Made by a program: the position numbers and the translations under genes. 64,000 bases of DNA from Edaphobacter flagellatus. Its GTDB lineage: Bacteria > Acidobacteriota > Terriglobia > Terriglobales > Acidobacteriaceae. The notes under the pieces were generated by a model, which was not told the origin of the DNA, made no database searches, and was given only the letters and a program-made list of their open reading frames with translations. The stretch covers positions 2,046,001 through 2,110,000 of the forward strand of contig NZ_CP073697.1 of NCBI RefSeq assembly GCF_025264665.1. The letters run 5' to 3'. Numbering within the stretch: the stretch's first letter is position 1; every line of letters begins with the position of its first letter. Positions 6,127 through 31,662 of the stretch are shown one piece after another.

Positions 6127-6159
6127 CTCGAAATCAGCTTTCTCTTGCAAGAGTTATTG
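6121..6159. terminator. Bidirectional hairpin between convergent genes
   Basis: CAATAACTC (6121-6129) and GAGTTATTG (6151-6159) form a perfect 9-bp inverted repeat, with an inner CTCTTGCAAGAG palindrome. It spans both stop codons of the convergent amylase-like and heparinase-like genes. A separate 16-bp palindrome, ATTGCATCGATGCAAT, overlaps it on the left (6109-6124). Confidence 0.5.
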
Positions 6160-11344: not shown

Positions 11345-11362
11345 CTTTCTCTTCCTTTGCAA

Positions 11363-12406: not shown

Positions 12407-13765
12407 CTACACCACTCCATGCGGATGCGCATTTGCAACTTTGTTAAGCATGCTATCGATAGCGGACTCGAGTATCTGCATGGCCTCTCCTGGCACACGG
12501 GCCGCAACGACCTCGTAGCCAGCCTGGGGGTTGGCTTTCATATCAGGCAGGTAGCCGATGTAATCGTTCGTCAGACCGAAGAATAATGTCTGCTGCAGGG
12601 GGGACCGGGCACGAACGTTGAGTGCGAGCTGGACGAAGATCTCCCCGGGCAATGAGACGATCCCAAGATTTCCGATTCGCAGCACAATGACCTCAACCGG
12701 AAGCTGCTTCGGCTCAGGGTAGTGCGATTCTGCATAAAGCCTTGCGTAATATTCTTCGATACGCGCAAAGAGATACTTCTGTTTAGCCCTCAGGAAGGCC
12801 GGGGAAATGGGCTGGTCTTTAGCCGGGGGGCCCATAGCCTCTAAATCTCGCAGAGCCTGCTCGCGAGCGGCGGACATCGCCTCAACGGGAGGATAGGTCT
12901 TGAGAGGCAGATTCACTTCTGCCACCTGTATCTCCAGCGATGCAGGCTGTAACTGAAGGCTCGGCAGCGAAAGGAGAACGGAATCTGCAAGACGCTCTCC
13001 CAACCGCTGGGCCGTAGCGAAGGTACGGAAAGAGTCCACCACGCCTACAGCGCTGAGATCACTCTTGTGACCGACACTGAGATCTCCTTCAGCTCCATTA
13101 AAGTAAAATGCCTTTACATTTGCCCCCAGCTGCTGCCGCAAGCGCTCCAGCGTGAAAAACGGAAAGTCCTGTGTAGTTTTCAGCGTATCCGGACCAAGGA
13201 CCGTCGTATGACATGCGTAATTTACGGCAACGGCAACGGTGGTCCCATCGAGTTCCTCAACCAACAAAACCCCAGCAAACGGGTCCACGGGGGTGCCATC
13301 ATTTGTGCGACGATTTACTGCAATGCCATCGCAAGGAGCCAGCCCTGTTCGTAATTGCCGCGGTTTCCTGGAGCGCCACGCTGCTTCGACAGCAGATACT
13401 ACTGCATGCGCCATGTGCTCTAAATATTCTTCATCTAAAGATTGGCCCTGATTGAAAAAGTGATGCAGGGTAACCGGGCCGCAATGCGTGTGCGTTGCCG
13501 AGAGAAGGATATGCCCTGCGGGGATTCCGATGGATGTCTCAATCCGTCTTCGTACCCGTCGCGAGAAATCTGCTGAAACGGCAATCACTTCGATGCTGAC
13601 CAGAGCGATGCGCGTTTCGCCGCTCTCGAGAATCATGGCGTGAGCGTGCAGGTCGTCATGCACTCCGTCGGATACGCCCTTGCGTGCATCGAAGCCCGCC
13701 ATCTGAGAACCGAGCGGAGGCGTAATGACCTGGCTTGCAACTCCGATCTGCATCGTGTCGGCCAT
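12407..13765 (-). CDS. Neutral/alkaline ceramidase-like N-acyl amidase, no signal peptide
   Basis: A 452-aa protein matching the N-terminal catalytic domain of neutral ceramidases (VASQVITPPLGSQMAGF, VSIEVIAVSADFSRRVR). The Zn-site histidines appear in LSATHTHCGP and in NYACHTTVLG, and the nucleophile Ser is probably in FNGAEGDLSVG, a variant of the usual GDVSPN. True neutral ceramidases are about 650 aa and secreted; this one lacks the C-terminal Ig-like domain and any signal peptide. It therefore more likely hydrolyses a small intracellular N-acyl amide than sphingolipid. Its start overlaps the ridA stop by one base (TGATG). Second gene of the operon. Confidence 0.85.
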   Translation of the reverse strand: MADTMQIGVASQVITPPLGSQMAGFDARKGVSDGVHDDLHAHAMILESGETRIALVSIEVIAVSADFSRRVRRRIETSIGIPAGHILLSATHTHCGPVTLHHFFNQGQSLDEEYLEHMAHAVVSAVEAAWRSRKPRQLRTGLAPCDGIAVNRRTNDGTPVDPFAGVLLVEELDGTTVAVAVNYACHTTVLGPDTLKTTQDFPFFTLERLRQQLGANVKAFYFNGAEGDLSVGHKSDLSAVGVVDSFRTFATAQRLGERLADSVLLSLPSLQLQPASLEIQVAEVNLPLKTYPPVEAMSAAREQALRDLEAMGPPAKDQPISPAFLRAKQKYLFARIEEYYARLYAESHYPEPKQLPVEVIVLRIGNLGIVSLPGEIFVQLALNVRARSPLQQTLFFGLTNDYIGYLPDMKANPQAGYEVVAARVPGEAMQILESAIDSMLNKVANAHPHGVV

Positions 13766-14166
13766 CAGCGGCTTTCCTTAGCCTGCGAGGGAACACGCGC
13801 GATTGCATCGATTTCAACTTTAATGCCGAGGCCTAAAACCGATTGCACTGTGGTGCGTGTAGGCAGAGGCTGCGAGAAGAATTCCTGATATGTCTCGTTG
13901 AAACGATCGAAGTCTTCAATGCGGGCCAGGTGGCAGGTGCAACGTACGACGTCCTTGTAGCTGCATCCGGCTGCCGCGAGAACTTCGCCGAGATTGCGGA
14001 GCGTTACGCGCACTTCCTCTTCGATGCTTCCGGGGATCACCTGGCCAGTCGCAACATCAATAGGCCCCTGTCCGCTGACAAAGAGCCAGCCATCTACCAG
14101 AATTCCATCCGAATAGGCGCCTGTGCTCGCAGCGCGCTTGGGATTCTTAATTACAGTTCCAGACAT
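13765..14166 (-). CDS. RidA/YjgF-family enamine/imine deaminase
   Basis: A 133-aa protein starting at ATG 14166, with AAGGAG nine bases upstream. It has the RidA fold signature GWLFVSGQGPID near residue 30, the substrate-carboxylate Arg in LPTRTTVQSV and the terminal VEIDAIARV strand. RidA proteins hydrolyse reactive 2-aminoacrylate-type enamines released by PLP enzymes, which fits the two aminotransferases and the DTA-like enzyme of the island. It is the first gene of the six-gene operon, transcribed from a divergent promoter region that carries the shared operator at 14247-14268. Confidence 0.92.
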   Translation of the reverse strand: MSGTVIKNPKRAASTGAYSDGILVDGWLFVSGQGPIDVATGQVIPGSIEEEVRVTLRNLGEVLAAAGCSYKDVVRCTCHLARIEDFDRFNETYQEFFSQPLPTRTTVQSVLGLGIKVEIDAIARVPSQAKESR

Positions 14167-14246: not shown

Positions 14247-14268
14247 CTCGTCCAGCCGGCTGGATGAG
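14247..14268. promoter_or_regulatory. Candidate regulon operator, site 1 (CTCGTCCA-N6-TGGATGAG)
   Basis: An inverted repeat with 8-base arms (one mismatch) around a 6-base spacer, GCCGGC. It lies between the divergent ridA operon and the dehydrogenase gene at 14321. The left arm is identical to site 3 (27099-27120), and spacing and core match site 2 (22666-22687). The best candidate regulator is the IclR protein at 28797. Confidence 0.6.
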
Positions 14269-14320
14269 GCCCCATGCGACCAACAACGGAGATTGACGGA
14301 GCTGTTATCGCCCACCAAGA

Positions 14321-15328
14321 ATGAGTCTCATGGCAAAAAGACTCTCTTCAACGACAACAACCTCGCGCAAAGCGATGCGCTCGCGATCGGTACAACGTAT
14401 TGGCATCGTGGGATTGGGTCTGATGGGCCGCGGCATTGCCAGCTGCCTGCTCGCAAACGGCTTTGAAGTGGTTGGCTTCGATATTAGCGCGACACAGCGC
14501 AAAGGGAGTCTAAAGCATATATCCCATGCTTTGACTGAACTTCATAAGAGGAAGTTGCTGCCCGCAAGGAGGCTTGCAGACTGGCAGCAGCAGTATCACG
14601 TCGTTACTTCGCCGGAAGGGCTTGCCGAATGCGCGCTCGTTATTGAATCGGTCGCAGAAGATCTTGAGCTCAAGCGAGGAATCTACGCACAACTTGAGTC
14701 GATTCTTCCCACGAAAGCGATTATTGCCTCGAATACTTCAAGTTTGCCCATTACATCGCTTCAGCAAGGCCGCCTACATCCATCACGCATGATAGGAATG
14801 CACTGGGGAGAGCCTGCCGAAATTATGCATTACCTGGAAATTATTCCTGGCGAGCACACAGCTCCCTCGGTTATTCGCTATGCCGAAAAATTTGGCCGAT
14901 CCTGCGGCAAGGAGCCTGTCGTACTGAAGCAGGATATCCGCGGCTTTCTTTCGAATCGCCTGATGTATGCCATGATGCGCGAGGCGTGCCATCTGGTCGA
15001 AGCGGGCATCGCCGATATTGCGGATGTGGACCGCTCCTTTCGCAACGATATTGGGTGGTGGGCGCTTCTCGCAGGCCCCTTCCGCTGGATGGACCTGACC
15101 GGAATTCCTGCCTATGCAGCCGTCATGGAAGGGCTTCTGCCTGAGCTTTCGGATACGAAGACAGTACCGCGCCTTATGAAACAGATGCAAAAGAAGAAGG
15201 CGGAGGGCATTAGCAACAGGAAGGGATTTTATCCTTACACACACAGTTCGTCTAAACGATGGAAGAAGGATTGGGTGGACTTTACATACGATATGAAGCG
15301 GCTCGCAGAAAAATATAAGGCGGACTGA
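14321..15328 (+). CDS. 3-hydroxyacyl-CoA dehydrogenase-family oxidoreductase (copy 1)
   Basis: A 335-aa protein with the Rossmann signature RIGIVGLGLMGRGIAS, the middle motif LVIESVAEDLELK...IASNTSSLPI, and the catalytic His in MIGMHWGEPAE, followed by the C-terminal helical domain (GFLSNRLMYAMMREACHLVE). It is a stand-alone two-domain enzyme like L-gulonate 3-dehydrogenase or L-carnitine dehydrogenase rather than a fatty-acid FadB. A paralog is at 30681. The Ser/Thr/Arg-rich N-terminus before the Rossmann fold is absent in the paralog, so the true start may be ATG 14375. Its stop overlaps the next start (TGATG). Confidence 0.88.
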   Translation: MSLMAKRLSSTTTTSRKAMRSRSVQRIGIVGLGLMGRGIASCLLANGFEVVGFDISATQRKGSLKHISHALTELHKRKLLPARRLADWQQQYHVVTSPEGLAECALVIESVAEDLELKRGIYAQLESILPTKAIIASNTSSLPITSLQQGRLHPSRMIGMHWGEPAEIMHYLEIIPGEHTAPSVIRYAEKFGRSCGKEPVVLKQDIRGFLSNRLMYAMMREACHLVEAGIADIADVDRSFRNDIGWWALLAGPFRWMDLTGIPAYAAVMEGLLPELSDTKTVPRLMKQMQKKKAEGISNRKGFYPYTHSSSKRWKKDWVDFTYDMKRLAEKYKAD

Positions 15329-16317
15329 TGCAAGCACAGTCAAAATTTCTTTCATGGTCCCTACTCTTTCTATGCAACCTGATGTGGGCGCTTCAGTTTA
15401 CCTGCATCAAGCTTGTGCAGGGCCAGGTGGGACCACTGTTCACCGTCTGGTTTCCGACGCTGCTTTCGCTGCTTATCCTCTTGCCGATTGTTATTCATGA
15501 GAGGCGAGCCCACCCTGATTCCATGCCTCGTCCCGGACGCGGAAATATCGTTCGCTTGTACCTGATGCTGGGGCTCATTGGCGTTGTTCCCGGTCAGCTT
15601 CTTATGACGTGGGGCACGCGCATTTCGCTTGCTACGAATGCAGCGCTGCTTACTCTGCTGCTACCTCTGACCACGGCGCTTGCCGCTGTATTGTTTCTGC
15701 ATGAAAAGATGACTCCGCTGCGGTGGCTTAGCTTTGCGGTTGCATTGGTCGGTGTGGTTCTTTGCTCGAGCAGCGACATTCGCGCGGCAAGCTTTAGCCG
15801 CGGCCAGCTCTTCGGGAATGCTCTTGTGTTTTTGGCGATCCTTGGCAGCTCCTTCTATAACTCCTATGGCAAGCGGGCGTTGGAGTGGCATTCTCCGATG
15901 GAGATGCTCTTCTGGACTTATGTTGTTCTGACAGCAATGATGACGCCGTTTGTCTTGCTGCTGGAGAGAAACAGCTTCGTCGCCATTCCACAGTTCACAC
16001 ACCAAACCTGGCTCGGGCTTACTCTGCTGACGCTGTTTCACACATGCCTGTCGATGATTCTTTTCCTCAAGGCGCTGAAGTCGCTTGATGCCATTCAGGC
16101 GGCCCTTTCCAACTATCTCATCGCTTTCTTTGGCATTCCCATCGCAGCTTTCTGGCTGCACGAGCGTATAGGGAAAGGGGCCATCCTTGGAGGCCTGCTT
16201 GTAGTAAGCAGCACGCTATTGATTACGCTGCTTGATAAGACTCCGGCAAAAGAAGTTGGCCCTGACGGATCACATAGTGAATCCCAATCGGTGAGTGCTC
16301 AGGACTGTCGTACGTAG
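15328..16317 (+). CDS. EamA/DMT-superfamily transporter
   Basis: A 329-aa inner-membrane protein with about ten hydrophobic segments arranged as two EamA repeats (LLFLCNLMWALQFTCIKLVQ opens the first; ALVFLAILGSSFYNSYGKRA opens the second). DMT carriers move amino acids, amines or other small metabolites, often as exporters. It is translationally coupled to the dehydrogenase upstream. The last 95 bases overlap, in convergent orientation, the end of the D-aminoacylase gene. Substrate not predictable. Confidence 0.88.
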   Translation: MQAQSKFLSWSLLFLCNLMWALQFTCIKLVQGQVGPLFTVWFPTLLSLLILLPIVIHERRAHPDSMPRPGRGNIVRLYLMLGLIGVVPGQLLMTWGTRISLATNAALLTLLLPLTTALAAVLFLHEKMTPLRWLSFAVALVGVVLCSSSDIRAASFSRGQLFGNALVFLAILGSSFYNSYGKRALEWHSPMEMLFWTYVVLTAMMTPFVLLLERNSFVAIPQFTHQTWLGLTLLTLFHTCLSMILFLKALKSLDAIQAALSNYLIAFFGIPIAAFWLHERIGKGAILGGLLVVSSTLLITLLDKTPAKEVGPDGSHSESQSVSAQDCRT

Positions 16318-17746
16318 CCCGACTCTCTATGCTGGCCGGATCGAACGCTACGACATCTGCCGCATACCCACTGCGTAGATATCCACGATCCTGCAAGCGG
16401 AAACGCTCGGCGGGGAAGCCCGTTATCTTATAAATCGCGGTTTCAAGCGGCAGCCACTGCTTTTCCCGGCATAGAGTTCCCAGCAATTCAGCGAAGGTGC
16501 CATACAACCGAGGGTGCGGGCGCCCTTTCACATAGAATCCGTCGCTAATCACGATGCTCAATGGATGCGTGATATTTCGCTGCAGATTTTCCTGACTCTG
16601 ATTGAATTCCAGAATATTGACCTCCCCTTCCTCTTCCAGGAGAAGATCAAACATGGCTTCTATAGGATTGCAGCCGCGAAGCTCTGCAATTTCTTTGAGA
16701 TTTTTCCCTACGGCGTCGGCATTTACAGAGGAGCCTACGGCGCTGATATAGAGCTCATCCCATTCATGGACGATTCCGGCTAGCGTCTCTTCTCGTAGCT
16801 GTTTACGTAGTTGGCGATCTTTCAGTCGCTCCATCAAAGCAGCCGTGCCACCATCGAGCGCATGCTGCGGCAGAAGCTGCGTCATCACGGTGCTGCCAGC
16901 AATATATGGATAGCAATCAAAGGCAAGATCAATTCCTTCTTTATGAGCCGCCTCAATCCGTTCCAGCGCGCGCCCATTGAGTGAACGATTCGACTTGCCT
17001 ACGGCCTGCAAATGAGAAATCTGTAATCGGCACCCAGTACGACGCGCCAGAACTATCTGCTCTTCGACTGCTTCCAGCAGATACCGGCCATAGTCACGCA
17101 TATGTGTGCAATAAACCTTATTGCGGCGCGTCACGACACGACACAGACGATCCAGCTCCTCGACGTCGGCGCTCGATCCCGGAGCATACATTAGCCCAGT
17201 CGAGAAGCCTGTGGCTCCTGCAGCCAGAGACTCGTCCAGAAGGCATTCCATCTTATCCAGCTCTTTCGGAGTCACCGGTCCCATTCGATTGCCGCAAACG
17301 GCGATGCGCAAGCTGCCGTGACCAATCAACGAACCAATCGAGCCCAACGTAGCATGTGCCCTTAGACTGGCGAGATATGACTCAGCGTCCGGCCAGCCCC
17401 AGCTATCATCGCCGCAAAAAATTCCATTCGCAAAGGCCCGCAGCTCAGCAGCATGTTGTCCGCATGGATATGGCGAGAAGCCGCAGTTGCCGACGATCTC
17501 ACTCGTAACGCCCTGATGAAGTTTTTCTTTGCGCTTTTGCAGCACCTGGAGATCGGAATGGCTATGCGCGTCGATAAAGCCCGGAGCTACAACCAGTCCT
17601 GCGCAGTTCAGCACTTCGGCCTCTCCGGGTATCTCACCGGGCGAGATCGCTTCAATCTTTCCACCACGCAGCAGAATATCGGCGCGGTGTAGCGGGCTGC
17701 CACTTCCATCGGCAAGCAGCCCATTGACAAGTAGGAGGTCCCTCAT
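16223..17746 (-). CDS. N-acyl-D-amino-acid deacylase family amidohydrolase (copy 1)
   Basis: A 507-aa enzyme, start ATG 17746 (MRDLLLVNGLLADG); a TTG three codons upstream is unlikely. All D-aminoacylase landmarks are present: HxH metal ligands in GFIDAHSHSDL, the metal Cys in SEIVGNCGFSPYP, TGLMYAPGS, His ligands in CTHMRDYG and LQISHLQAVGKSN, and the catalytic Asp in VISDGFYVKGRPHPRLYGT. Members remove N-acyl groups from D-amino acids or cleave related amides or hydantoins in the cytoplasm. It follows the class III aminotransferase by 22 bases, suggesting deacylation followed by transamination. A paralog lies at 27218. Confidence 0.92.
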   Translation of the reverse strand: MRDLLLVNGLLADGSGSPLHRADILLRGGKIEAISPGEIPGEAEVLNCAGLVVAPGFIDAHSHSDLQVLQKRKEKLHQGVTSEIVGNCGFSPYPCGQHAAELRAFANGIFCGDDSWGWPDAESYLASLRAHATLGSIGSLIGHGSLRIAVCGNRMGPVTPKELDKMECLLDESLAAGATGFSTGLMYAPGSSADVEELDRLCRVVTRRNKVYCTHMRDYGRYLLEAVEEQIVLARRTGCRLQISHLQAVGKSNRSLNGRALERIEAAHKEGIDLAFDCYPYIAGSTVMTQLLPQHALDGGTAALMERLKDRQLRKQLREETLAGIVHEWDELYISAVGSSVNADAVGKNLKEIAELRGCNPIEAMFDLLLEEEGEVNILEFNQSQENLQRNITHPLSIVISDGFYVKGRPHPRLYGTFAELLGTLCREKQWLPLETAIYKITGFPAERFRLQDRGYLRSGYAADVVAFDPASIESRATYDSPEHSPIGIHYVIRQGQLLLPESYQAA

Positions 17747-17768
17747 TCGTCGCAATGGTTCAGCAGGA

Positions 17769-19106
17769 TTATGAGGCTACAGTCAACACCGACTTCAATG
17801 CGGACTTTACGCTCTCTAACGTAAAGTCTACATCCGCATCGGTATGCGCGGCTGAAAGCGAACACTGCTTTACCGCAAGCTGGAAAAAATAAACTTCATG
17901 ATCGAGCAGCTCGCGGCGGAGACGCAAGTCGAAATCAAAGTCATGATGCTGCGCAAGATCGTGCCAATCCTTGGGAAGATGGTCCATGAAATACGGGCAG
18001 AAGGCCGATCCCTGCCTCGCAATATGCGCCGTAATTCCTACTGATCTAAATATCTCTTCCATGCCCGCCTGAACTCGCTTACCAAGACGATCAAGATGCC
18101 GGTAGACCTCTCCATCGTCTTCTGCGAGCCGCTCCATCGTGGCAATCGCAGCGGCTACGGGCACCGGGTGTCCGTTATAAGTTCCTGCGAGCAAGACGCG
18201 GCGCGTAGAGTCTGCATCGACAAACAAATTCATGAGAGAACGCTTGCCGGCCAGCGCAGAGATGGGAAAACCATTTGCGATGGCCTTCCCGTAAACAACA
18301 AGGTCTGGGCGCACACCGCTTAGCGTTGAATAGCCACCCAAAGCGTGACGAAATCCGGTCTTCACCTCATCGAAGATCAATACAAAGCCATGCTTATCGG
18401 CAAGCGCGCGCAGGCCCTGCAGATAACCTTCCCGAGGATGTACGACGCCGATGTTCTGCAGAATCGGCTCTACGATGAGCGCGGCCACAGGATATCTCTC
18501 ACACATCGCCTCTACGGAAGCCAGGTCATTGAAATTAATGGCATGCACTAGGGACTGGTGCTCCTCGGGAATGCCCGCGCTGATAGGAATGCGGGGGTAC
18601 TCATCAGCGACACGGCGATCCCCAAGCTGCGAAAGCGGAGTCATCAGATTGAAGGCGACATCGTTGTGCCAGCCGTGATAGCCGCCCTGCGGCTTCAGAA
18701 TATGTTTTCTTCCGGTAGCGGCGCGGGCCAAACGAATAGCCTGATAGGTCGCTTCGCTCCCCGTGTTCAGCAGCTGAACCGCTTCAACAAAGGGAACCGA
18801 ATCGCAAATCAGCTGGGCCAGCTTGCCTTCCAGCTCTGTCGTTCCTGATCCAAACAAACTTGCCTTGTCCTGCAGAACGCGAAGAACAGCCTCGTTCACA
18901 TAAGGATCGTTATGGCCGAGAACATAAGGACCAAAAGCAGCGTGGTAATCCAGATATCTGTTCCCATCGGCATCCCACATCCAGGCTCCCTCGCCTCGCT
19001 CGAAGACGATCGGAGGATCGACTGCCCGGTTTGTTGAAACGACTCCGCCAGGAATTGAGCGCTGATTGCGCTTAAGGATTTCTTCTGATTTCGCAAATAA
19101 GGGCAT
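17769..19106 (-). CDS. Class III PLP aminotransferase, glutamate-1-semialdehyde-aminomutase-like (copy 2)
   Basis: A 445-aa protein, start ATG 19106 (MPLFAKSEEILKRNQRSIPG). Motifs: LLNTGSEATYQAIRLARAAT, GGYHGWHND, the pyridine-contacting Asp in LIFDEVKTGFRHAL, and the Schiff-base Lys in YGKAIANGFPISAL. It is clearly paralogous to the copy at 9980 but diverged throughout, so the two probably act on different intermediates. No strong Shine-Dalgarno sequence is visible. A two-gene unit with the downstream D-aminoacylase is likely. It is not preceded by the island operator; instead the inverted repeat ACTCACG-N7-CGTGAGT lies at 19164-19184. Confidence 0.9.
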   Translation of the reverse strand: MPLFAKSEEILKRNQRSIPGGVVSTNRAVDPPIVFERGEGAWMWDADGNRYLDYHAAFGPYVLGHNDPYVNEAVLRVLQDKASLFGSGTTELEGKLAQLICDSVPFVEAVQLLNTGSEATYQAIRLARAATGRKHILKPQGGYHGWHNDVAFNLMTPLSQLGDRRVADEYPRIPISAGIPEEHQSLVHAINFNDLASVEAMCERYPVAALIVEPILQNIGVVHPREGYLQGLRALADKHGFVLIFDEVKTGFRHALGGYSTLSGVRPDLVVYGKAIANGFPISALAGKRSLMNLFVDADSTRRVLLAGTYNGHPVPVAAAIATMERLAEDDGEVYRHLDRLGKRVQAGMEEIFRSVGITAHIARQGSAFCPYFMDHLPKDWHDLAQHHDFDFDLRLRRELLDHEVYFFQLAVKQCSLSAAHTDADVDFTLESVKSALKSVLTVAS

Positions 19107-19163
19107 TTTCGATTCTCAACAGGCCGCATGGCCTAAGTGGAACTATAGGTCGCGCTCCGATTC

Positions 19164-19184
19164 ACTCACGCAAATTTCGTGAGT
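19164..19184. promoter_or_regulatory. Inverted repeat ACTCACG-N7-CGTGAGT upstream of aminotransferase copy 2
   Basis: Perfect 7-bp arms around CAAATTT, 58 bases upstream of the aminotransferase start and 6 bases from the terminator hairpin of the TonB receptor. It could be an operator for the aminotransferase-deacylase unit or a second hairpin of a tandem terminator; sequence alone does not decide. Confidence 0.35.
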
Positions 19185-19223
19185 TGGAAATAGCTGCCGT
19201 CCACATTTCTGGACGGCAGCTAT
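19184..19223 (-). terminator. Strong hairpin terminator after TonB receptor
   Basis: A perfect 14-bp stem (19190-19203 with 19210-19223) and a 6-base loop. On the minus strand it is followed by TTTCCAA. It lies 20 bases past the stop codon of the receptor gene. Confidence 0.75.
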
Positions 19224-19242
19224 GAAGTGACTCAATACAGGG

Positions 19243-22200
19243 TTAGAACGAGAGTTTTGCTCCGAGCTGCACAGTTCTGTTATCGAGGTTTGTGCTGGAG
19301 ATTTTTCCAGCAGTGGCCGCCGAAATATTAGAACTCGGGCTGCTGAAGCTAGGATGATTGGGCGCATTGAAGGCATCGGCACGAATCTGAAGCTTCAGCC
19401 TCTCGTAGTACAGCGTCGTTGTCTTCTGCAAGCTGAGATCGATCGAGCTTTCTCTCGGGCCAATCAAGCTGTTTCTACGTGCATTTCCGAACGTGTAGGG
19501 AGCCGGTACGGAGAACGCGGCAGGATTGAACCACCGACTAAGAGTATGCGCTCCAGCGTATGGATCTGTTGCCGTCACATTTGCGCGCGTGGCGTACCAT
19601 CCCGCCAAGCCGTTAGAAAATGTAGGCGTAAATGGAGCGCCGGAGCGGAACTGAGACATGCCCGCGATCGACCATCCATTGATAAAGCCACCTACAAAAC
19701 CAGTTCCATGAAGCGGCAGGTCCCAGCTCGCATTGAGGAAGACGTTGTGCTGACGCGTGCCATCTGCATTTCCTTTATCGTCCTGTGGGCGATAAGGATT
19801 CTGCGGACTGGCAGCGATCGGCACGTTATCCAGAGACTTGCCCCAGGTGTAGCTACCCTGCAGAAACACTCCCTTCGAGGTATGCCGAGTCACTTCCACC
19901 TGAAGCTGATTCGTGAAGGAAGCGCCTTTCGTGATCAGGCTGGGGATGTCGGCCCAGGGCTGATAGGGACGAATCGCTTGAAGCGAGCTGGTTGGCTGCA
20001 ACACTGGAAGATTCTTGTTGTACAGATACCAGGGTGCCTGGGTCGCCTTGTTGCCAACATAGGAGATGCGTAGCCCTATCCCGTCCATCAATTGCTGCTC
20101 GATGGAGAGGTTCCACTGCTGCGAGCGTGCATTCTTCAGATCACGATTGACTGCGTAGACCGTCGGATTTCCCGTAACCGTACCAGTCCCTGGAAATGGG
20201 TTGGCAAATGTCAGCGAAGGAGTTAGTGACGAGGTGGACAAGTAACTCTGCGTCAGAACAAAGGGAAAATTCAGCTGAGAGATCTGCCGTATGCCGATGT
20301 AAGGAGGCACGAAGTTATAGAAGATGCCGTAGCCACCGCGAATAACCGTCTTGTCAAAACCATTAGGACGGTACGCAAAGCCAAAGCGTGGTCCGAAATC
20401 CTTCTTGTCGGTTGTTAATACATCACTACCCCAGCCATTCTGCTCTGAAGTGATATAGGGATACATTCCCAGCACAGTCTGGTTCACGTTCTTAGGAAGA
20501 TTTCCGCCACTACTGCGAATGACGAACTTACCACTATTGAAATCAAAGTTGGTAAAGTCACCGTTCTGTTCCTGCGGCGAAGTCTGCAGGTTATACCGCA
20601 TGCCGATATTCAGAACCAGGCGAGGCGTAACGTTCCAATCGTCCTGAGCATAAAAACCATACTGCTGGTAACGAAGGTAGATAGGAATCTGAGGAGCCGC
20701 GCGCGTACTGCTATTGAGATAGCCCAACAGAAAGTCGGCAAAGGCATTTTCTGCACGCGGAGTCGCTGCACCAGAAGTGGCTGCGTTATACCAGGTGTAT
20801 TTTCCGGTGAATCCAAAGTTACCCAGCACATTCGCGCTGGTACCCGCTTTGATGGCGATTGAATCGAAATTGATGTTGGCACCCGCTTTGAAAGTATGCG
20901 CTCCTTTTGACCAGGTAAAGTTATCAGTCAACTGCTGTACCGTTTCCGGCGAGTGTCCGCTGCCGCCGTAGTCGCCAAGCCCTGCGAGACCTGTCATTGA
21001 AACGTTCGGCAGACCTCCTACTGAAAATGGCCCGTAAAGCGATGGGAAGAGCGTGCTTGGGTCAAAACCTGTGTTCTGGCCGACGCGAACACTGCGATGG
21101 CTCAGATAGCCATAGCGCGCTTCGTTTAGCAGGTGAGGAGTGATGACGTAGGTATCGCGCGCAAAGGCAGACTGCGTCGTATAGCCTGCATTGCTGAAGT
21201 TGCCGTAGTTTGCCGGTGTTCCCAACGAGACGAAGTAGGGATCGCCGATGGAGTAGATGCCACCTACCGTAATGGTGTGCTTGGAGTTGAGCTGGTGATC
21301 CAGCTTCAAGGTCCCGCGCTGTACGTTATATTTCGTACCGACAGCTGCGGTGTAGTTGATGCCCGTGCCCGCCGCTCCACTACCCGCAAGATTGGCATGC
21401 GGATAGTATCCCAACAGAGCCTGCGATCTGGCATCTATCCTGGAAGTAGGAATCTGATTTCCAGCGAAGGGCAAGCCCGTAAGCGGATCGGTGATTGTGC
21501 CCAAGCCGGTGAAATTGCCGTTCCTCATGGCGTCTGTTGCCACGGGAAGAGATACCGTGCTGTTCGTACGCTGAATCAACCCTTCATAACTGACAAAGAA
21601 AAATGTCTTGTCATGGATAATCGGCCCACCAAAGGTTACTCCGAACTCGTTCCTGTTGTAGGGAGGCTTCACCGCTGTAGACGGCAGGAAGTAATTGCGG
21701 GCGGCAAGGGCGCGGTTACGGTTGAACTCGTAAATACGACCGTGAAATTGATTTGTTCCCGATCGCGTAATGATCGAGATAGCCGCCGCGCCTTCACTTT
21801 CGGCCTTCGCCATATTGGATTCGATCTTCATCTCCTGAATCGTTTCCGTTGAAGGCATGGTCGTCAGGTTGGTTGCGTAGGAATAGGCACCGGCACCGTT
21901 GCCCAGATCATTAAAGTTTCCGCCGTCAACTGTGAAGTAGGAGCCTCCCCACCGCAATCCGCCAGAAAGCTGCGGCGATGAAGCGCTATCGTTGGTGTTG
22001 CCCGCAGAGAAGACAATCAATCGATCGATGGTGCGCCCATTCAATGGAAGCCGTTCGGCGGCCTGCGTATCAATTACCGACGCGAGAGAAGAGCTATCTG
22101 TAGTGATTGTTGCAGGAGCTGCCGTTACCTCAACCTTTTGATCCGGTTGGCCGACAGAAAGGGCAATGTCGTTACGGACAATCGCATTCAAAAGCAGCCT

Positions 22201-22485
22201 TACCTGCTGCAATGTTGCTGTTCGGAATCCATGAGCTGTGACCGTAACCTCATACACCGAGGCGGGAAGATTGATGATCCGGTATTGTCCCTCACCATCG
22301 GTCTCTGCTTCGGTTATCGCATTGGTGTTGACATTACGCGCTGTGACCTTTGCGCCAATCACTGCCGCGCCTGTGGCATCAGTAATGAGTCCGGTAAGCG
22401 ATCCGGTTGTAGTTTGCGCCGACAGCAAACCTGGGAGACAAAGTAAACACAAGAATAGAGCACGAATAAACGCAGTACGATGCAT
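19243..22485 (-). CDS. TonB-dependent receptor, Oar-like, of the catabolic island
   Basis: 1080 aa from ATG 22485 (signal peptide TAFIRALFLCLLCLPGLLSA; AAGGA about 8-11 bases upstream). A carboxypeptidase-regulatory beta-sandwich (TGSLTGLITDATGAAVIGAK) precedes the plug (RLPLNGRTIDRLIVFSAG, GSYFTVDGGNFNDLGNG) and the outer-membrane barrel, which ends with the C-terminal strand VQLGAKLSF. It is the only visible outer-membrane receptor of the island and so the likely importer of its oligomeric substrate. It diverges from the GH20 gene; a perfect 26-base palindrome, site 2 of the shared operator, lies between them. Confidence 0.9.
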   Translation of the reverse strand: MHRTAFIRALFLCLLCLPGLLSAQTTTGSLTGLITDATGAAVIGAKVTARNVNTNAITEAETDGEGQYRIINLPASVYEVTVTAHGFRTATLQQVRLLLNAIVRNDIALSVGQPDQKVEVTAAPATITTDSSSLASVIDTQAAERLPLNGRTIDRLIVFSAGNTNDSASSPQLSGGLRWGGSYFTVDGGNFNDLGNGAGAYSYATNLTTMPSTETIQEMKIESNMAKAESEGAAAISIITRSGTNQFHGRIYEFNRNRALAARNYFLPSTAVKPPYNRNEFGVTFGGPIIHDKTFFFVSYEGLIQRTNSTVSLPVATDAMRNGNFTGLGTITDPLTGLPFAGNQIPTSRIDARSQALLGYYPHANLAGSGAAGTGINYTAAVGTKYNVQRGTLKLDHQLNSKHTITVGGIYSIGDPYFVSLGTPANYGNFSNAGYTTQSAFARDTYVITPHLLNEARYGYLSHRSVRVGQNTGFDPSTLFPSLYGPFSVGGLPNVSMTGLAGLGDYGGSGHSPETVQQLTDNFTWSKGAHTFKAGANINFDSIAIKAGTSANVLGNFGFTGKYTWYNAATSGAATPRAENAFADFLLGYLNSSTRAAPQIPIYLRYQQYGFYAQDDWNVTPRLVLNIGMRYNLQTSPQEQNGDFTNFDFNSGKFVIRSSGGNLPKNVNQTVLGMYPYITSEQNGWGSDVLTTDKKDFGPRFGFAYRPNGFDKTVIRGGYGIFYNFVPPYIGIRQISQLNFPFVLTQSYLSTSSLTPSLTFANPFPGTGTVTGNPTVYAVNRDLKNARSQQWNLSIEQQLMDGIGLRISYVGNKATQAPWYLYNKNLPVLQPTSSLQAIRPYQPWADIPSLITKGASFTNQLQVEVTRHTSKGVFLQGSYTWGKSLDNVPIAASPQNPYRPQDDKGNADGTRQHNVFLNASWDLPLHGTGFVGGFINGWSIAGMSQFRSGAPFTPTFSNGLAGWYATRANVTATDPYAGAHTLSRWFNPAAFSVPAPYTFGNARRNSLIGPRESSIDLSLQKTTTLYYERLKLQIRADAFNAPNHPSFSSPSSNISAATAGKISSTNLDNRTVQLGAKLSF

Positions 22486-22796
22486 AGAACGTATCCTTAC
22501 ACTTGAGATTCTGTGCAGCAACATCGACCACATGACCACTGGCCTCCGAACATCTCGCAGCGTGCTTCTCTGCTTGCGAAGAACATCTTCTTCCCTAGCT
22601 GCGATACATCACTCTCTCGCTATCGCTACGCATCGGTACAGACTTCTGTTAGCTCAAGGACCTAAGTTGTCCATTGGCATGGACAACTTGGATTGGATTT
22701 CGTCGAGCTTCATCCCTCTGTCGCAAAGATGAAGGAGTATTCTCGGCTAACAGTCAGTACGGCCATCACAGGCACCAATAGAAGACTTTCTTCCCT
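22486..22796. other. Divergent intergenic region between TonB receptor and GH20 gene
   Basis: 311 bases without a supported gene. The notable content is the 26-base palindrome at 22664-22689, listed separately. No hairpin with a T-run and no RNA gene was recognised. Confidence 0.6.
22664..22689. promoter_or_regulatory. Candidate regulon operator, site 2 (perfect palindrome)
   Basis: The arms AAGTTGTCCAT and ATGGACAACTT form a perfect 11-bp inverted repeat around TGGC. The core GTTGTCCA-N6-TGGACAAC matches sites 1 and 3 in core and spacing. It lies 179 bases upstream of the receptor start and 108 bases before the GH20 start, so it can serve both directions. Confidence 0.7.
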
Positions 22797-24899
22797 ATGA
22801 AATCCTTTATCTCTTGCTACTCAAGACGTTCCGCCGTTCCTTGCGCTGTTTTTTTCTGTGCCATTACTGTCACGCTCTCTGCGCAAGCGCATCCGATGCT
22901 GCTCCCGGAACCCCAGCAGATTACCTACGGCAACGGACAAGTCGATATTTGCCGTAAACAGCTCGCAATCGATTCCAAGGAACTGTCGCTTGACGAAGAT
23001 CGATTTGCGTTGATGGAACTAAAAAAGACTCTCTCCTTGGCCTGCGCACATCGTCCTGGCACATCGGCAGGCAGCTTACAGGTTCGCCTCGTCGACCTGA
23101 AACAAGGCGCAGCACTGCCTCAGGATGGAGAAAAGCCAGGGAAGGATTCGCGTGAAGCCTATCGCATCTTTATCAACGAAAAGGGGATTCTGCTGGAAGG
23201 CAAATCGTCAGCGAGTCTTTTTTATGCGGTACAGACCGTACGTCAGCTTTTGGAAACTTCGCCCGAACAGCATTCTCTTCCCTTCATAGAAATTCAAGAC
23301 TGGCCAGCAATGCCTTACCGCGGCTTCATGATGGATATGAGCCACGGCGCAGTACAGACGATGCCGGAGGTAGAACGGCAGATCGATCTGCTGGCGCGCT
23401 TCAAAGTGAACCAGTATTACTGGTACTCCGAGACAGGCTTCATTCAGAATGAACCTCTTCTGCAGTATGGTTCATCGTGGTCTCGTGAACAGATAGCACA
23501 TGTCATTGAATATGCGCGGCAACGGCATATCGACGTTATTCCGTGCATCGAGCTTTACGGACATCTGCACGACGTGTTAAGGCTTGAGAAGTACGCCTCA
23601 CTGGCTGCGGTTCCTCATGGCGGTGAAATCGATCCAACAGCCTTAGAAGTGCAGCCTTTGCTTGAATCATGGGTACGCCAGATTGCCGCTCTATTTCCCA
23701 GTCCCTGGATTCATCTCGGCTTCGATGAGCCGTTTGAATTGGAGCGCTCCGATGTGCCTAACAAAGCAAAGAAAAAGCCAGAAGACCTTTGGCTTGATCA
23801 TCTGCACGCTACATCCAGGTTGGCAGCGAGCCTGAACAAGCGCCCGCTCTTTTGGGCCGATATCGATGAAGGCGCCTATATTTTCAATCGGTACCCTGAA
23901 CTTGCCGACCATCTTCCAGGAAATGCTATTGCCGTTCCCTGGTTCTACGCTGCTCGCGGCGATTACTCAAACCTAATGCAGCCCTTTGTGCAGCACCATA
24001 TTCCTTCCATTGTGGCTACTGGTATCGCCGACTGGGAGGAAGTGACTACTGACTTTGCGACAAGCTTTATTAATATCGACGGATTCGTTCTTGCAGGCCG
24101 AAAGGCAGGTTCGCTCGGCATGGTCAATACGGTTTGGTCTGACTCCGCGCTACCGCTTCATCGTACGGCTGAGCCCGCAATGGTCTATGGAGCAGCCGCT
24201 GCATGGCAGAGCATGCCGATGGATCGCACTCACTTTTTCGAAAATTACGCCTCACTCTTCTTTCCGCAGACAATCGCTCCAGATATAGCAACCGCTCTTT
24301 CGGCATTGGGTCGCGCACAAACTTCTCTGCAAAAAGCGCTTGGCCAGGAAACCGCGTTCCGCATGTGGGACGATCCTCTAACACCTGCCGCGCTCGCCCA
24401 TACTGCAAATCATTTAGAAGAACTCCATAACTGCCGCCTAGCTGCGGAAGAAGCCGAAACAAACCTGATCAAAGCCATTAAACTGCAAGGCAACGGAACA
24501 GATCCCGCCGGCAATCTGGAGGGGTGGCTGTTCGCTGCCCAAACTCTCGATTATGTTGGACTGCGTTATCAAAGCGCTCATGAGATTGCGGCTATGTTCG
24601 CGGCACTTCCCGATCACCCGTCCCTCGATGATCTCGAGTACAGACTAGGGAGGGAGGTCAGCGCTCGCAATCATAGCCGCGTAGGAGATTTATTTGATCT
24701 CTCCGGCAAGCTGAAGGATGAATATAAACAGCAGTGGCTAGAGCAATATCGTCCGTTCCGGCTGGAATCTGCATTGGCTCGCTGGTCGGCGGAACAGGAA
24801 TATTGGAGAAGCTTCCAACAACGTACGTGGGCCGCCATGCATCCCTTCAAACAAGGCGACCCAAGTCCAACGTTGGAATCGATTCGAGCACAACACTAA
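22797..24899 (+). CDS. Secreted GH20-family beta-N-acetylhexosaminidase-like enzyme
   Basis: A 700-aa protein with signal peptide (PCAVFFCAITVTLSAQAH). A GH20b-type N-terminal domain (about 30-150; PMLLPEPQQITYGNGQVD) leads into the barrel (MPYRGFMMDMSHGAVQ). The catalytic Asp-Glu pair is in WIHLGFDEPFEL (about 307-309); the usual HxGGDE is HLGFDE here, so substrate binding may differ. It probably trims terminal N-acetylhexosamine or a related unit by substrate-assisted catalysis. Retained Asp-Glu argues for activity. It diverges from the TonB receptor under operator site 2, and its stop overlaps the convergent GH10-like gene by 4 bases. Confidence 0.85.
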   Translation: MKSFISCYSRRSAVPCAVFFCAITVTLSAQAHPMLLPEPQQITYGNGQVDICRKQLAIDSKELSLDEDRFALMELKKTLSLACAHRPGTSAGSLQVRLVDLKQGAALPQDGEKPGKDSREAYRIFINEKGILLEGKSSASLFYAVQTVRQLLETSPEQHSLPFIEIQDWPAMPYRGFMMDMSHGAVQTMPEVERQIDLLARFKVNQYYWYSETGFIQNEPLLQYGSSWSREQIAHVIEYARQRHIDVIPCIELYGHLHDVLRLEKYASLAAVPHGGEIDPTALEVQPLLESWVRQIAALFPSPWIHLGFDEPFELERSDVPNKAKKKPEDLWLDHLHATSRLAASLNKRPLFWADIDEGAYIFNRYPELADHLPGNAIAVPWFYAARGDYSNLMQPFVQHHIPSIVATGIADWEEVTTDFATSFINIDGFVLAGRKAGSLGMVNTVWSDSALPLHRTAEPAMVYGAAAAWQSMPMDRTHFFENYASLFFPQTIAPDIATALSALGRAQTSLQKALGQETAFRMWDDPLTPAALAHTANHLEELHNCRLAAEEAETNLIKAIKLQGNGTDPAGNLEGWLFAAQTLDYVGLRYQSAHEIAAMFAALPDHPSLDDLEYRLGREVSARNHSRVGDLFDLSGKLKDEYKQQWLEQYRPFRLESALARWSAEQEYWRSFQQRTWAAMHPFKQGDPSPTLESIRAQH

Positions 24900-26092
24900 G
24901 CTGGGCGCTTGAAAGGACCAGCGCGCAGAGCATCGCACACCTGATCGGTAAAGACTGCACCGTGAAAGAACAGCAACCCGGGGCATCCCAGCGATCTCGC
25001 GGCTTCGATGTCCTCGATCACTCCTGGAACCGTGTTCTTACCGGTGCTCCAATCGAGGGCAATGCCGGCATATATGGAACACGCCTTGCCAATGTCGTTG
25101 ACAGTCAGCTGCAACTGCTCGCGGAAATCGGAAAGCCTTGGTTCATAGACCTGCGGAGCATAGTACTGCAGCCAGCCTGAGAGAGCCCACCTTCCCCAGT
25201 CTCGGCCACGCTTGCGATCGTGACGCCAGTCGGGACCGCCATTTGCGGAATAGACGACGCGCGGGAAGTTCTTTTGCATCTCATCACGCATTTCGCTCAT
25301 AAAGGCACTGGTTCCGATTGTTCGAAAGTCTTCCGCCTCGGATGAGTCGAGATCGACCGTTAGGTCTTTACTATGCAGCTCGCCATAAACCTTACGGCAC
25401 AAGTCACACAGACAATAGCCGCGCTGCCTGTAACCGGGTTCCTCGATATGCAGTCCGTGAACCTTTGCATACCGCCGAAGCGTTTTCACCAGCAGAGCCT
25501 TTTGCCAGGTGCGCGCGCCAGCATATTGTGGACACACATTGTCATGCCGAGGCTCCGCGAGCTTTCCCGTCTTTGCATCGGGTACAACTTCATCCAACCG
25601 CCTGGCAGACCACTGTGGATTCCCTCCAACCGATGGGTCAAACTCAGGACTGTTTGGCTGGCGATAATCCGTAAAGCTATACCAGAGGTCAACATCGATT
25701 CCCTCTCGGGCCGCCTCCTCAATTAACACACCAAGCGCATCCCACGTCGCTGTAGGATGCGTCTTCTGATAAGTAGTGGAGTCCAATGCCGCCAGATAGC
25801 CGCTGGTCGTCCACGGCAACAGGAGGTTGAAGTTGGCGCGAGCGAAACGCTGCACCAGGCTGCGTACCTGTTTGCGGCCCTCTGCAGAATCTGCGCTAAA
25901 GTAACGCTCCGGATGGATCCAGATTCCACGCACTTCTTTTGGAGGACGCTGTGCATATGCCACCTTTTCGGTCAAAGGCGTATTGGCATCCTGCGCGTTG
26001 ATATTGGCGGTTTGCGCAATCATACCGCTTGTAGATGCCAAGGCAGCTGCAGGCATCAGGCGAAGCAGATCTCGTCGATTCAGGTTATTCAT
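24896..26092 (-). CDS. Exported glycosyl-hydrolase-like TIM-barrel protein (GHL10/DUF4015-like)
   Basis: 398 aa from ATG 26092. The N-terminus NRRDLLRLMPAAALASTSG is a twin-arginine-type export signal. The rest resembles glycosyl-hydrolase-like 10 proteins: EVRGIWIHPERYF begins strand 1, NFNLLLPWTTSGYL and GIDVDLWYSFTD follow, and GLLFFHGAVFTD ends the barrel. A compact Cys cluster, YCLCDLCRKVYG (C-x-C-x2-C), about residue 220, is of the kind seen in some beta-galactosidase-like barrels and may bind metal. Specific activity unknown. It is probably cotranscribed with the amidohydrolase gene 88 bases upstream. Confidence 0.7.
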   Translation of the reverse strand: MNNLNRRDLLRLMPAAALASTSGMIAQTANINAQDANTPLTEKVAYAQRPPKEVRGIWIHPERYFSADSAEGRKQVRSLVQRFARANFNLLLPWTTSGYLAALDSTTYQKTHPTATWDALGVLIEEAAREGIDVDLWYSFTDYRQPNSPEFDPSVGGNPQWSARRLDEVVPDAKTGKLAEPRHDNVCPQYAGARTWQKALLVKTLRRYAKVHGLHIEEPGYRQRGYCLCDLCRKVYGELHSKDLTVDLDSSEAEDFRTIGTSAFMSEMRDEMQKNFPRVVYSANGGPDWRHDRKRGRDWGRWALSGWLQYYAPQVYEPRLSDFREQLQLTVNDIGKACSIYAGIALDWSTGKNTVPGVIEDIEAARSLGCPGLLFFHGAVFTDQVCDALRAGPFKRPA

Positions 26093-26180
26093 ATTCCGGG
26101 CAATGTATCGCAATGCTATACCGCTCGCACAGCCTTACTCTCCGCAAGCGACATAAATGTTCAGAATCATGGACACGTAT

Positions 26181-27020
26181 TTATGCTTCGATGCCTAAAA
26201 GACTAAGCGTATCTCTATCCAACATCCCTTCGATCAGGGCGTTCTCTATGCGCGGTAACCCGGATGTTCCAGTGATGTGGTTGACGTTGCGCAGGGCATC
26301 TGCTGTATCTCCCGGTGTTGTGAACGGATAATCGGATCCCAGAAGAAGCTTATGGCCCACGCCGTACTCCTGTGCCAACATGAGGGCGTTATAGAACTGC
26401 CACGGCCTGTAGTACAAGGCTGAGATATCGGCAAACACATTCGGCTGCTTGCGAATCAGCACTACGGTGTCTGCAACCCACGGATGCCCCATGTGCGCGA
26501 TCACAATCTTCAATCCCGGATACTGCAACGCAACATCTTCAATCTGGATCGGCAACGCATATTTCAATGGAGCGCGACGCGGGAAGGTCGTTCCCTGATG
26601 AATCAGGACAGGGATGCCCTGCTTCTCGCAAAAAGCATAGACCGGTTGCATTCGCTCATCCATCGGATGGTAGTTCTGATAGATGGGAGCCAGTTTCAAG
26701 CCAAGGAAGCTTTGCTTCAGGAAGCAGTGCCGCATCTCCTCGAGATAATCCGGCTCATGCGGATCCAGGCATGCGAAGCCAATCAGCTTCTCAGGATGTT
26801 TGGCTACATAATCATGTATCCGCTGGTTCGGAACGATCAGTCCCAGATGCTTTGAGTGGAAGCCAAAGACGATAGCCCGTTCCACAGGCTTCATCGCCTC
26901 CCAATGCTCTTCTTCGGATATCTCAATCATGGCTGGTGCGCCACGAGCAATCGTCGCCTCGCGCTCGATCTCTTCTCCCCAATCTTCCGCCTTCCACAAA
27001 TGCGTATGACAATCGATCAC
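26181..27020 (-). CDS. Amidohydrolase-2 family metal-dependent hydrolase/decarboxylase
   Basis: 279 aa, GTG start at 27020 with GGAGGGG six bases upstream. Ligands of the ACMSD/amidohydrolase-2 barrel are visible: HxH in DCHTHLW, His in IPVLIHQGTT, His in IVIAHMGHPWV and Asp in LLLGSDYPFTTPGD. Family members decarboxylate or hydrolyse carboxylated substrates, including lactones. It diverges from D-aminoacylase copy 2 across operator site 3. Exact reaction unknown. Confidence 0.88.
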   Translation of the reverse strand: MIDCHTHLWKAEDWGEEIEREATIARGAPAMIEISEEEHWEAMKPVERAIVFGFHSKHLGLIVPNQRIHDYVAKHPEKLIGFACLDPHEPDYLEEMRHCFLKQSFLGLKLAPIYQNYHPMDERMQPVYAFCEKQGIPVLIHQGTTFPRRAPLKYALPIQIEDVALQYPGLKIVIAHMGHPWVADTVVLIRKQPNVFADISALYYRPWQFYNALMLAQEYGVGHKLLLGSDYPFTTPGDTADALRNVNHITGTSGLPRIENALIEGMLDRDTLSLLGIEA

Positions 27021-27098
27021 AAAACCCCTCCAGCTTGAGCGTTAGCCTACATCCGAGCCTGAATTTCGCTAAAACCCAGCTTGACTATGGCAGGCCCT

Positions 27099-27120
27099 CT
27101 CGTCCAGCCTATTGGACAAG
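27099..27120. promoter_or_regulatory. Candidate regulon operator, site 3 (CTCGTCCA-N6-TGGACAAG)
   Basis: An inverted repeat with one mismatch and spacer GCCTAT, between the divergent amidohydrolase and D-aminoacylase genes. It is 79 bases upstream of the amidohydrolase start and 98 bases upstream of the D-aminoacylase start. The IclR regulator is the second gene of the plus-strand unit, so autoregulation through this site is likely (inference). Confidence 0.65.
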
Positions 27121-27217
27121 GTTCCCTGCAGACAGGTTTTATCGGCATACAGGGGGTGTCCCTGTTGTCTAGACTCCTCCCAAGTTGCCACCTATTTCAC
27201 AATGGAGCGATTGAGCT

Positions 27218-28807
27218 GTGCTGGTCCTACGAAACGCGACGATCCTTGACGGCACCGGCAACGCACCCTACGTTGGCAGCATTCTTGTGTGCGATAAAGA
27301 GATCGCGGCCATTGGCTCTTTCGAAGAACCGTCCGGCGCACGAATCGTCGATTTGCAGGGACTCGTCGCAGCCCCCGGATTCGTAGATCTGCATAGTCAT
27401 TCCGATCTCAAGCTCAAAGAGAATCGTCGCGAAAAACTGAATCAGGGAGTCACGACGGAAGTCGTTGGCAACTGCGGGTTCTCTCCCTTCCCATCCGGCC
27501 CCTATCAGACAATGCTGAGCGAGCAGAATGATGGCATCCTCAACGGTAAGGAAACATGGCCGAACGCAGCAGAATATCTGACGAATCTTCACGCCAACTG
27601 CACTGTCGCCCATCCTGAGGTTCTTGTTGGGCATGGAAGCCTTCGCACTGCGGTCTGCGGCACGCACACAGGCCCAGCCAAAGAAGATCAGATCAGCCGC
27701 ATGGAAGCTGTGCTCGATGAAGCACTCGCACAAGGCGCATGCGGTTTTTCAACTGGACTTATGTACGCTCCCGGATCGGCAGCTACAGAGCAGGAATTGC
27801 TACGCCTTTGTCGCGTCGTTGCCGGTCATGGAAAGCTCTATACCACGCACATGCGTAGCTATTCGTGGCTCCTCAATGAAGCGATCGAGGAGCAAATTAA
27901 CCTTGCCCGAAAGGCGCAATGCCGCCTTCAGATTTCCCATCTTCAGGCTGTAGGCCAACGCAACTGGCACAAGCAGGACGCCGCACTGAAGCAGATTGAA
28001 GACGCACGAGCCGAAGGTATCGATGTTGCCTTCGACAGCTATCCCTATCTCGCCGGCAGCACCGTCATGACGCAGCTTCTGCCCCAGAGCAGTCTCGATC
28101 AGGGTACCGACGGGCTCATGCGTTGCCTTCAAGCTTCGTCCGAACGGCATAAGCTTGAGAGCTACCTGAGGGAAGAAACGGCGCAGAAGTGGAGCGATAT
28201 CTTTGTCTCCTCGCTTGAATCTACGGCGAATCAGGCGCTCATCGGCAAAAACCTTGAAGAGATCGCTAGTGACCGAGGATGTACCCCTGAGTCCTTACTC
28301 CTCGATCTTCTGTTGGAAGAAAAAGGCAAGGTCAACATTGTTGCCTTCAACCAAAGCGAAGAGAATCTGCGTCAACTTCTCACGCACCCGTTGTGCTCCA
28401 TCATTTCGGATGGATTCTATGTCAAAGACAGGCCTCATCCCCGTCTTTACGGAACCTTCCCCCTGCTTCTAGGTGAGATCTGCCGCGAAAAGCGCTGGCT
28501 CACTTTGCCTGAAGCAATCCACAAGATCACTGTGGGAGCGGCACGCCGCATTGGACTGACGAGGCGCGGACAACTGAAGCAGGGATACTTTGCAGATATC
28601 ACCGTTTTTGATCCCGATAGAATCGGTACATCTGCTTCTTATCAGAATCCTGCCGTGACACCACAGGGAATCGAGCTCGTGCTGTTGGAGGGACGTCTCA
28701 TTGCGGGGTCTTTCGATGTCTCCAGGCATACATCTGCTGCGGAGCACATATATCTAAAGAATGAATTGAATTTTGCTTCTATAGGAGAACCTAGCCATGG
28801 CGACTAG
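27218..28807 (+). CDS. N-acyl-D-amino-acid deacylase family amidohydrolase (copy 2)
   Basis: 529 aa from GTG 27218 (GGAG about 11 bases upstream). It has the same active-site set as the copy at 16223: PGFVDLHSHSDLKL, VVGNCGFSPFP, TGLMYAPGS, TTHMRSYSW, LQISHLQAVGQRN and IISDGFYVKDRPHPRLYGTF. The two copies diverge in the C-terminal region and in the loop after the metal Cys, suggesting different acyl or amino-acid preferences. First gene of a five-gene plus-strand operon; its end overlaps the IclR start by 11 bases. Confidence 0.92.
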   Translation: MLVLRNATILDGTGNAPYVGSILVCDKEIAAIGSFEEPSGARIVDLQGLVAAPGFVDLHSHSDLKLKENRREKLNQGVTTEVVGNCGFSPFPSGPYQTMLSEQNDGILNGKETWPNAAEYLTNLHANCTVAHPEVLVGHGSLRTAVCGTHTGPAKEDQISRMEAVLDEALAQGACGFSTGLMYAPGSAATEQELLRLCRVVAGHGKLYTTHMRSYSWLLNEAIEEQINLARKAQCRLQISHLQAVGQRNWHKQDAALKQIEDARAEGIDVAFDSYPYLAGSTVMTQLLPQSSLDQGTDGLMRCLQASSERHKLESYLREETAQKWSDIFVSSLESTANQALIGKNLEEIASDRGCTPESLLLDLLLEEKGKVNIVAFNQSEENLRQLLTHPLCSIISDGFYVKDRPHPRLYGTFPLLLGEICREKRWLTLPEAIHKITVGAARRIGLTRRGQLKQGYFADITVFDPDRIGTSASYQNPAVTPQGIELVLLEGRLIAGSFDVSRHTSAAEHIYLKNELNFASIGEPSHGD

Positions 28808-30663: not shown

Positions 30664-30680
30664 AGAAGGAGCAGCATCTG

Positions 30681-31625: not shown

Positions 31626-31662
31626 CTGAGATCACTACGTACCAAGGAATTCGTGTCAACAC

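Follow-up and report, generated by a model that had tools for sequence, protein, structure and literature searches.

In a published survey of IclR-family regulators (Suvorova and Gelfand 2021, PMC8222616), the even-length operators of group 1 follow the pattern NGTYCRAW4TYGRACN (NGT-12-ACN), and the taxonomic table of that survey has no row for Acidobacteria. PMC13273656 gives GTNCG-N5-6-CGNAC operators for HutR, CatR, PcaR, PobR and others, and in the paper on BhcR of the beta-hydroxyaspartate cycle (PMC11323563), IclR and AllR are described as repressors released by glyoxylate. Here, we describe putative operators in a 64,000-nucleotide stretch (the window) of the genome of the acidobacterium Edaphobacter flagellatus (NZ_CP073697.1, positions 2,046,001 to 2,110,000), within an island of catabolic and uptake genes that encodes an IclR-family protein. 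By half-site and spacing, these sites would fit the group 1 even-length class, with a departure in the spacer consensus. We propose, with a probability of about 60%, that the island is operated by this IclR protein as one autoregulated regulon, most likely repressed until a pathway metabolite releases IclR.

Putative operator sites and their conservation

Sites 1, 2 and 3 (Table 1) share an 8-6-8 layout: site 1 is CTCGTCCA GCCGGC TGGATGAG, with a single arm mismatch (GTCCA vs. ATCCA), site 2 is GTTGTCCA TTGGCA TGGACAAC, and site 3 is CTCGTCCA GCCTAT TGGACAAG. These three sites had been reported in a preliminary description of this DNA, and we found them where it had placed them, with equal 6-bp spacing and each between divergent genes. 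Site 2 had been called a perfect 26-base palindrome; it has perfect 11-bp arms across 26 bases, but the four central bases, TGGC, are not palindromic. Site 4 and the weak site 6 were absent from that description. Site 4 is located between the aminotransferase gene and the 3′ end of the receptor gene and is not flanked by divergent genes; its centre is 100 bp upstream of the aminotransferase start (19106). From the centre of site 1, the ATG of ridA (14166) is 92 bp away and that of dehydrogenase 1 (14321) 64 bp; across the sites, the distances from centre to start codon are 64 to 193 bp. In the published survey, most site centres fall between −20 and −80, and the tail of the distribution reaches −300 (PMC8222616).

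A genome scan, one of the checks named in the preliminary description, confined the full motif at zero mismatches to the island: TYGTCCAN6TGGAYRA was found at three places in the 4,445,627-base single-contig genome, all within the island, with none for the reversed control. Allowing up to two mismatches, the window contains 12 matches (both strands counted) at seven places, compared with a shuffled mean of 2.65 and a largest shuffled value of 11, such that none of 100 shuffles reached 12. The short core GTCCAN6TGGAC also occurs at three genome places, all in the island, one being site 4, but this core alone is not rare, because its reversed control gives five places; with one mismatch it is at background level (101 vs. 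131 for the control). The evidential weight rests on the flanks, clustering and conservation of the sites, not on the bare core. Further regulon members elsewhere in the genome were considered and rejected, the site with one mismatch at 828057 being inside a 1047-aa reading frame and the one-mismatch cores being at background.

Among 62 genomes of the genus (that of the window included), a close IclR orthologue (66 to 71% identity) is present in three others, G303, G313 and G324. Their islands are syntenic: G313 has all 19 genes in order, and G303 and G324 have 18. As the preliminary description had proposed to check, sites were sought upstream of these orthologous islands, and a site was present at each of the four main promoters in each of the four genomes (16 of 16, with scores of 16.7 to 26.3 bits). 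The matrix was trained on 13 of these 16 sites, and the remaining three scored 16.7, 18.4 and 19.1 bits. A matrix built without the window, from nine sites in the other three genomes, ranked the four window sites first to fourth at 25.0, 22.3, 19.6 and 14.1 bits, and the next window match, at 11.5 bits (rank 5), was site 6. In alignments the GTCCA/TGGAC arms are kept, the spacers and flanks differ, and the flanking DNA is largely diverged. The counterparts of the weak site 6 in G313 and G303 score 16.3 and 15.3 bits, respectively, and share its GTTCA/TGGAC asymmetry; that of G324 is decayed.

In G303, G313 and G324, a further strong site is present where D-aminoacylase 2 ends or close by, 107 bp upstream of the iclR match; at the corresponding place in the window this extra site is absent (best 2.0 bits). 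The 16-base core of site 3, GTCCAGCCTATTGGAC (window 27102-27117), is identical, spacer included, to the iclR-upstream core in G324 (L092, 10771-10786) and G303 (L090, 10839-10854, reverse strand), even though the window copy and the other copies are at opposite ends of the D-aminoacylase 2 gene. This may reflect movement of the site or coincidence.

The IclR protein as probable binder and the third base of the half-site

The IclR protein is the sole one among the 19 island proteins with a DNA-binding Pfam domain, and it belongs to the family by HTH_IclR at 53.6 bits (gathering 22) and IclR_C at 147.9 bits (gathering 24). Strict dyads were counted near the genes of 106 IclR homologues from acidobacteria, comprising an initial set of 47 and a further 59 chosen among the matches listed, with L159 (100 bases) left out. 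The searched stretch was about 450 bp on each side of iclR for 104 loci and was set by hand for the window (27001-29600) and L037 (8201-10900); by construction, the dyad rule requires T at half-site position 2 and either C or T at position 3. It was found that a spacer of 6 occurs in 48 loci (68 sites), whereas nine other spacers (2 to 11) occur in 0 to 8 loci. In 40 of the loci (L042-L081), the dyad density was 0.81 per kb near iclR compared with 0.052 beyond 3 kb, and spacers 4, 5, 7 and 8 near iclR gave densities of 0 to 0.051.

The base at half-site position 3 follows residue 46 of the recognition helix. His46 is accompanied by C in 18 of 18 loci, or 13 of 13 without the five loci where the motif was already known before the count (the window, L037, L039, L094 and L096), and Ser, Phe or Tyr46 by T in 29 of 30 loci, the exception being L155 (Fisher p 2.6e-12, uncorrected for kinship). 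In L162, the matched stretch lacks a residue at position 46. A tree was built from the effector domain alone, with 47 of the 48 loci with a call, L155 being left out by a rule on the first base of the half-site. On this tree each trait changes twice, giving two independent pairs in the same direction; because L155, the sole exception, was left out, the two traits are identical on the 47 rows and their changes necessarily coincide. Residue 46 aligns with Tyr38 of TM0065 (PDB 1mkm alignment, with the numbering offset counted by hand), which corresponds in Table 5 of PMC8222616 to Gln51 of TtgV, a direct DNA contact. In the same survey, His32 is reported to prefer C(10) weakly; position 10 of the even-length sites in that survey probably corresponds to the third half-site base here.

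This genome also encodes an IclR paralogue (47%), with a GTCCG-N6-CGGAC dyad, ATCGTCCGATTAGCCGGACGAT, about 80 bp upstream of it. This dyad is found at three places in the genome, one at the paralogue, with 18 for the control. The paralogue locus (L039, G000:C1:998000-1004000), with the dyad at 3042-3063, iclR from 3124 and a divergent receptor-like gene on the other side of the dyad, is a smaller copy of the same architecture. The proteins beside GTCCG dyads (L039 and L059) read PRSTAHA, and the window IclR reads PKSSLHC. We consider it an evenly balanced proposal that, in acidobacterial IclR proteins, residue 46 sets the third base (His for GTCC; Ser, Phe or Tyr for GTTC) and that residues 42, 44 and 47 (R, T and A) turn GTCCA into GTCCG, keeping the two paralogous regulons apart. 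If this is true, the operators and regulons of the clade would be predictable from the regulator sequence alone.

Exact motifs were found in four of four genus genomes with a close orthologue, whereas eight of 58 without one had them (Fisher p 0.0009); the exact match in G303 (contig 1) is outside the island. Two of the eight, G230 (L094) and G305 (L096), have a 38 to 40% identical IclR beside an amidohydrolase-2 gene (47%) and GTCCA dyads, which suggests a related regulon with other genes. No IclR match was found in the motif-bearing stretches L093, L095, L097-L102 and L105, nor in L038, and the motifs there may be due to chance or to other regulators. Beside a large set of acidobacterial IclR genes (L064, L067-L069, L072-L076, L078-L081, L109, L110, L113 and others) there are GTTCA-N6-TGAAC dyads, in many cases two at one locus.

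The preliminary description had named IclR the natural candidate regulator. As a binder of the predicted operators, whatever the regulatory mode, IclR is very probably the right protein, given that it carries the only DNA-binding Pfam domain among the island proteins, that dyads stand beside many of its homologues and that the third base follows the recognition helix.

Predicted island units and proposed mode of regulation

Table 1. Predicted operators and transcription units of the island (window positions; unit contents from Pfam)
Feature	Position	Strand	Description
Site 1	14247-14268	.	CTCGTCCAGCCGGCTGGATGAG; between divergent ridA and dehydrogenase 1; counterparts in G303, G313 and G324
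Site 4	19196-19217	.	GCCGTCCACATTTCTGGACGGC; counterparts in G303, G313 and G324
Site 2	22666-22687	.	GTTGTCCATTGGCATGGACAAC; between receptor gene and GH20; counterparts in G303, G313 and G324
Site 6, weak	26156-26177	.	AATGTTCAGAATCATGGACACG; upstream of GHL10
Site 3	27099-27120	.	CTCGTCCAGCCTATTGGACAAG; between amidohydrolase 2 and D-aminoacylase 2; counterparts in G303, G313 and G324
ridA unit	6154..14166	-	RidA, ceramidase-N-like, Gfo/Idh/MocA, class III aminotransferase, FAA hydrolase, heparinase II/III-like; site 1
Dehydrogenase 1 (3HCDH type) and EamA/DMT carrier	14321..16317	+	Site 1
Class III aminotransferase and D-aminoacylase-like copy 1	16223..19106	-	Site 4
TonB-receptor-like outer membrane protein	19243..22485	-	OMP_b-brl_4; site 2
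GH20 protein	22797..24899	+	Site 2
Amidohydrolase 2 and GHL10	24896..27020	-	Site 3; GHL10 also under weak site 6
D-aminoacylase-like copy 2, IclR, D-threonine-aldolase-type enzyme, dehydrogenase 2, SSS symporter	27218..33390	+	Site 3
IclR-family regulator, proposed binder	28797..29588	+	IclR_C and HTH_IclR; recognition helix PKSSLHC, His46

The island (6154-33390, 27 kb) comprises 19 genes with Pfam domains, of catabolic and uptake functions. With operon extents predicted from gene order, all 19 would fall under a site. The regulon outlined in the preliminary description is supported but was too small: site 4 adds the aminotransferase and D-aminoacylase 1, and a weak site precedes GHL10.

In the mechanism that we infer, which extends to binding, operon extents, repression, autoregulation and ligand, an IclR dimer or pair of dimers would occupy a 22-bp dyad, roughly TYGTCCA-N6-TGGACRA, with one recognition helix per GTCCA half and His46 reading the C:G pair at half-site position 3. 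The four main operators and the weak one would cover every island unit, including that of IclR, so that the island would be one autoregulated regulon, and IclR would repress these promoters until released by a pathway metabolite. Given that IclR binds, repression relieved by a metabolite seems the likelier mode, by analogy with IclR and AllR. Promoter overlap was rejected as a clue to repression: the sigma-70-like match near site 1 (14293-14322) runs into the dehydrogenase 1 start codon.

Several results weigh against this interpretation. The residue-base link comes from two independent changes and cannot reach significance on that number; 58 of the 106 IclR homologues have no such dyad nearby; and without the base rule, plain 8-bp dyads show a modest excess at spacer 6 (44 vs. 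14 to 38 elsewhere). Six of the eight motif-holding genomes without a close orthologue show no IclR match in the stretches examined. In 4.48 Mb of Markov-random sequence, 19 chance matrix hits of at least 14 bits were obtained (maximum 19.4), and therefore the case for site 4, at 14.1 bits, and for the weak site 6 is made by place and conservation, not by score. A 16.7-bit match outside the island is found in L037 (17354), within a reading frame. As to mode, no sigma-70-like promoter match that would indicate repression was found at sites 2 to 4, and the nearest NCBIfam model is that of BhcR, which is described as an activator.

The strongest alternative, which we regard as possible though clearly the less probable mode, is that IclR, on the same operators, is an activator of the catabolic units and perhaps a repressor of itself, a mode that has been put forward for BhcR. 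Among NCBIfam models, that of BhcR matches the island IclR best (164 bits, below the cut-off of 350); BhcR is reported to activate its own cluster, with a dual role proposed, and the positions of the site centres upstream of start codons would also suit an activator; against this, IclR and AllR are described as repressors, and the promoter matches give no indication of either mode. It is improbable that a regulator from outside the island binds the sites and that IclR is a mere neighbour. Such a regulator would account for the exact motifs without a nearby IclR match in six genus genomes and on G303 contig 1, but not for the concentration of spacer-6 dyads beside iclR homologues across genomes, the third base that follows the recognition helix, or the variant site of the paralogue. 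That the dyads are chance palindromes or transcript hairpins is scarcely credible: across the genome, the bare core does not exceed background, and site 2 scores as a terminator-like hairpin, but terminator-like hits equal those in shuffles (7 vs. 6.7), which led us to reject a terminator at site 2, and chance palindromes were rejected on the conservation of the arms, which persist at the four promoters of all four genomes amid differing spacers and flanks.

Three enzyme families are each encoded twice in the island: D-aminoacylase-like (16223-17755 and 27218-28807), 3HCDH-type (14321-15328 and 30651-31625) and class III aminotransferase (9980-11362 and 17769-19106), which suggests paired or duplicated pathway steps. 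D-aminoacylase 2 is nearest to D-aminoacylase (257 bits) and also matches OngB (206 bits) and a carbohydrate de-N-acetylase (203 bits). For the aldolase, D-threonine and 3-hydroxyaspartate aldolases are the nearest matches, and its best solved relative is a D-threonine aldolase. From these two enzymes and the GH20, heparinase-like and receptor genes, we speculate that the island serves the uptake and breakdown of a polymer-derived N-acylated D-amino acid or amino-sugar acid. The aldolase gene (29569-30663) has no match in the islands of G303 and G324 (L090 and L092), where dehydrogenase 2 directly follows iclR; because two islands are without it, the aldolase is not essential to the proposed pathway.

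Comparison with described systems

We found no such regulon in the open-licence literature on IclR with Acidobacteria, Acidobacteriota or D-aminoacylase (among the matches listed) or with Granulicella. The proposed regulon would turn a 27-kb island of enzymes and transporters into one defined unit with a named regulator, and therefore the substrate can be sought via what releases IclR. It would also add an acidobacterial IclR operator, from a phylum missing from the taxonomic table of the motif survey, and connect a single residue with a single base in a way that can be tested.

The neighbourhood of the regulator resembles that of BhcR and BhcC (PMC11323563, NF045644, NF045642) in having an IclR-type regulator beside a D-threonine-aldolase-type gene, and these models are the best NCBIfam matches. 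Identity with BhcR and BhcC was rejected, both scores being far below the curated cut-offs (164.1 vs. 350 bits for BhcR; 244.4 vs. 690 bits for BhcC, 3-hydroxy-D-aspartate aldolase). In contrast to that system, only one of the three orthologous islands gave a match to the aldolase gene. The operators listed in PMC13273656 have the same layout as the island sites, and the paralogue site fits their consensus, whereas the island sites have A, not G, at half-site position 5 (GTCCA).

By half-site and spacing, we assign the sites to the even-length class of IclR group 1. As in that class, the island sites have GTYCR half-sites with a 6-bp spacer and precede genes for catabolism and transport as well as the unit that encodes the regulator. 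The NGTYCR dyad is found in both arms of sites 2, 3 and 4 and in one arm of site 1 (the other being ATCCA), and site 6 has GTTCA and GTCCA. Unlike the group 1 consensus, the spacers (GCCGGC, TTGGCA, GCCTAT and CATTTC) are not A-W4-T. The island is thus a new example of an already known type of bacterial gene control.

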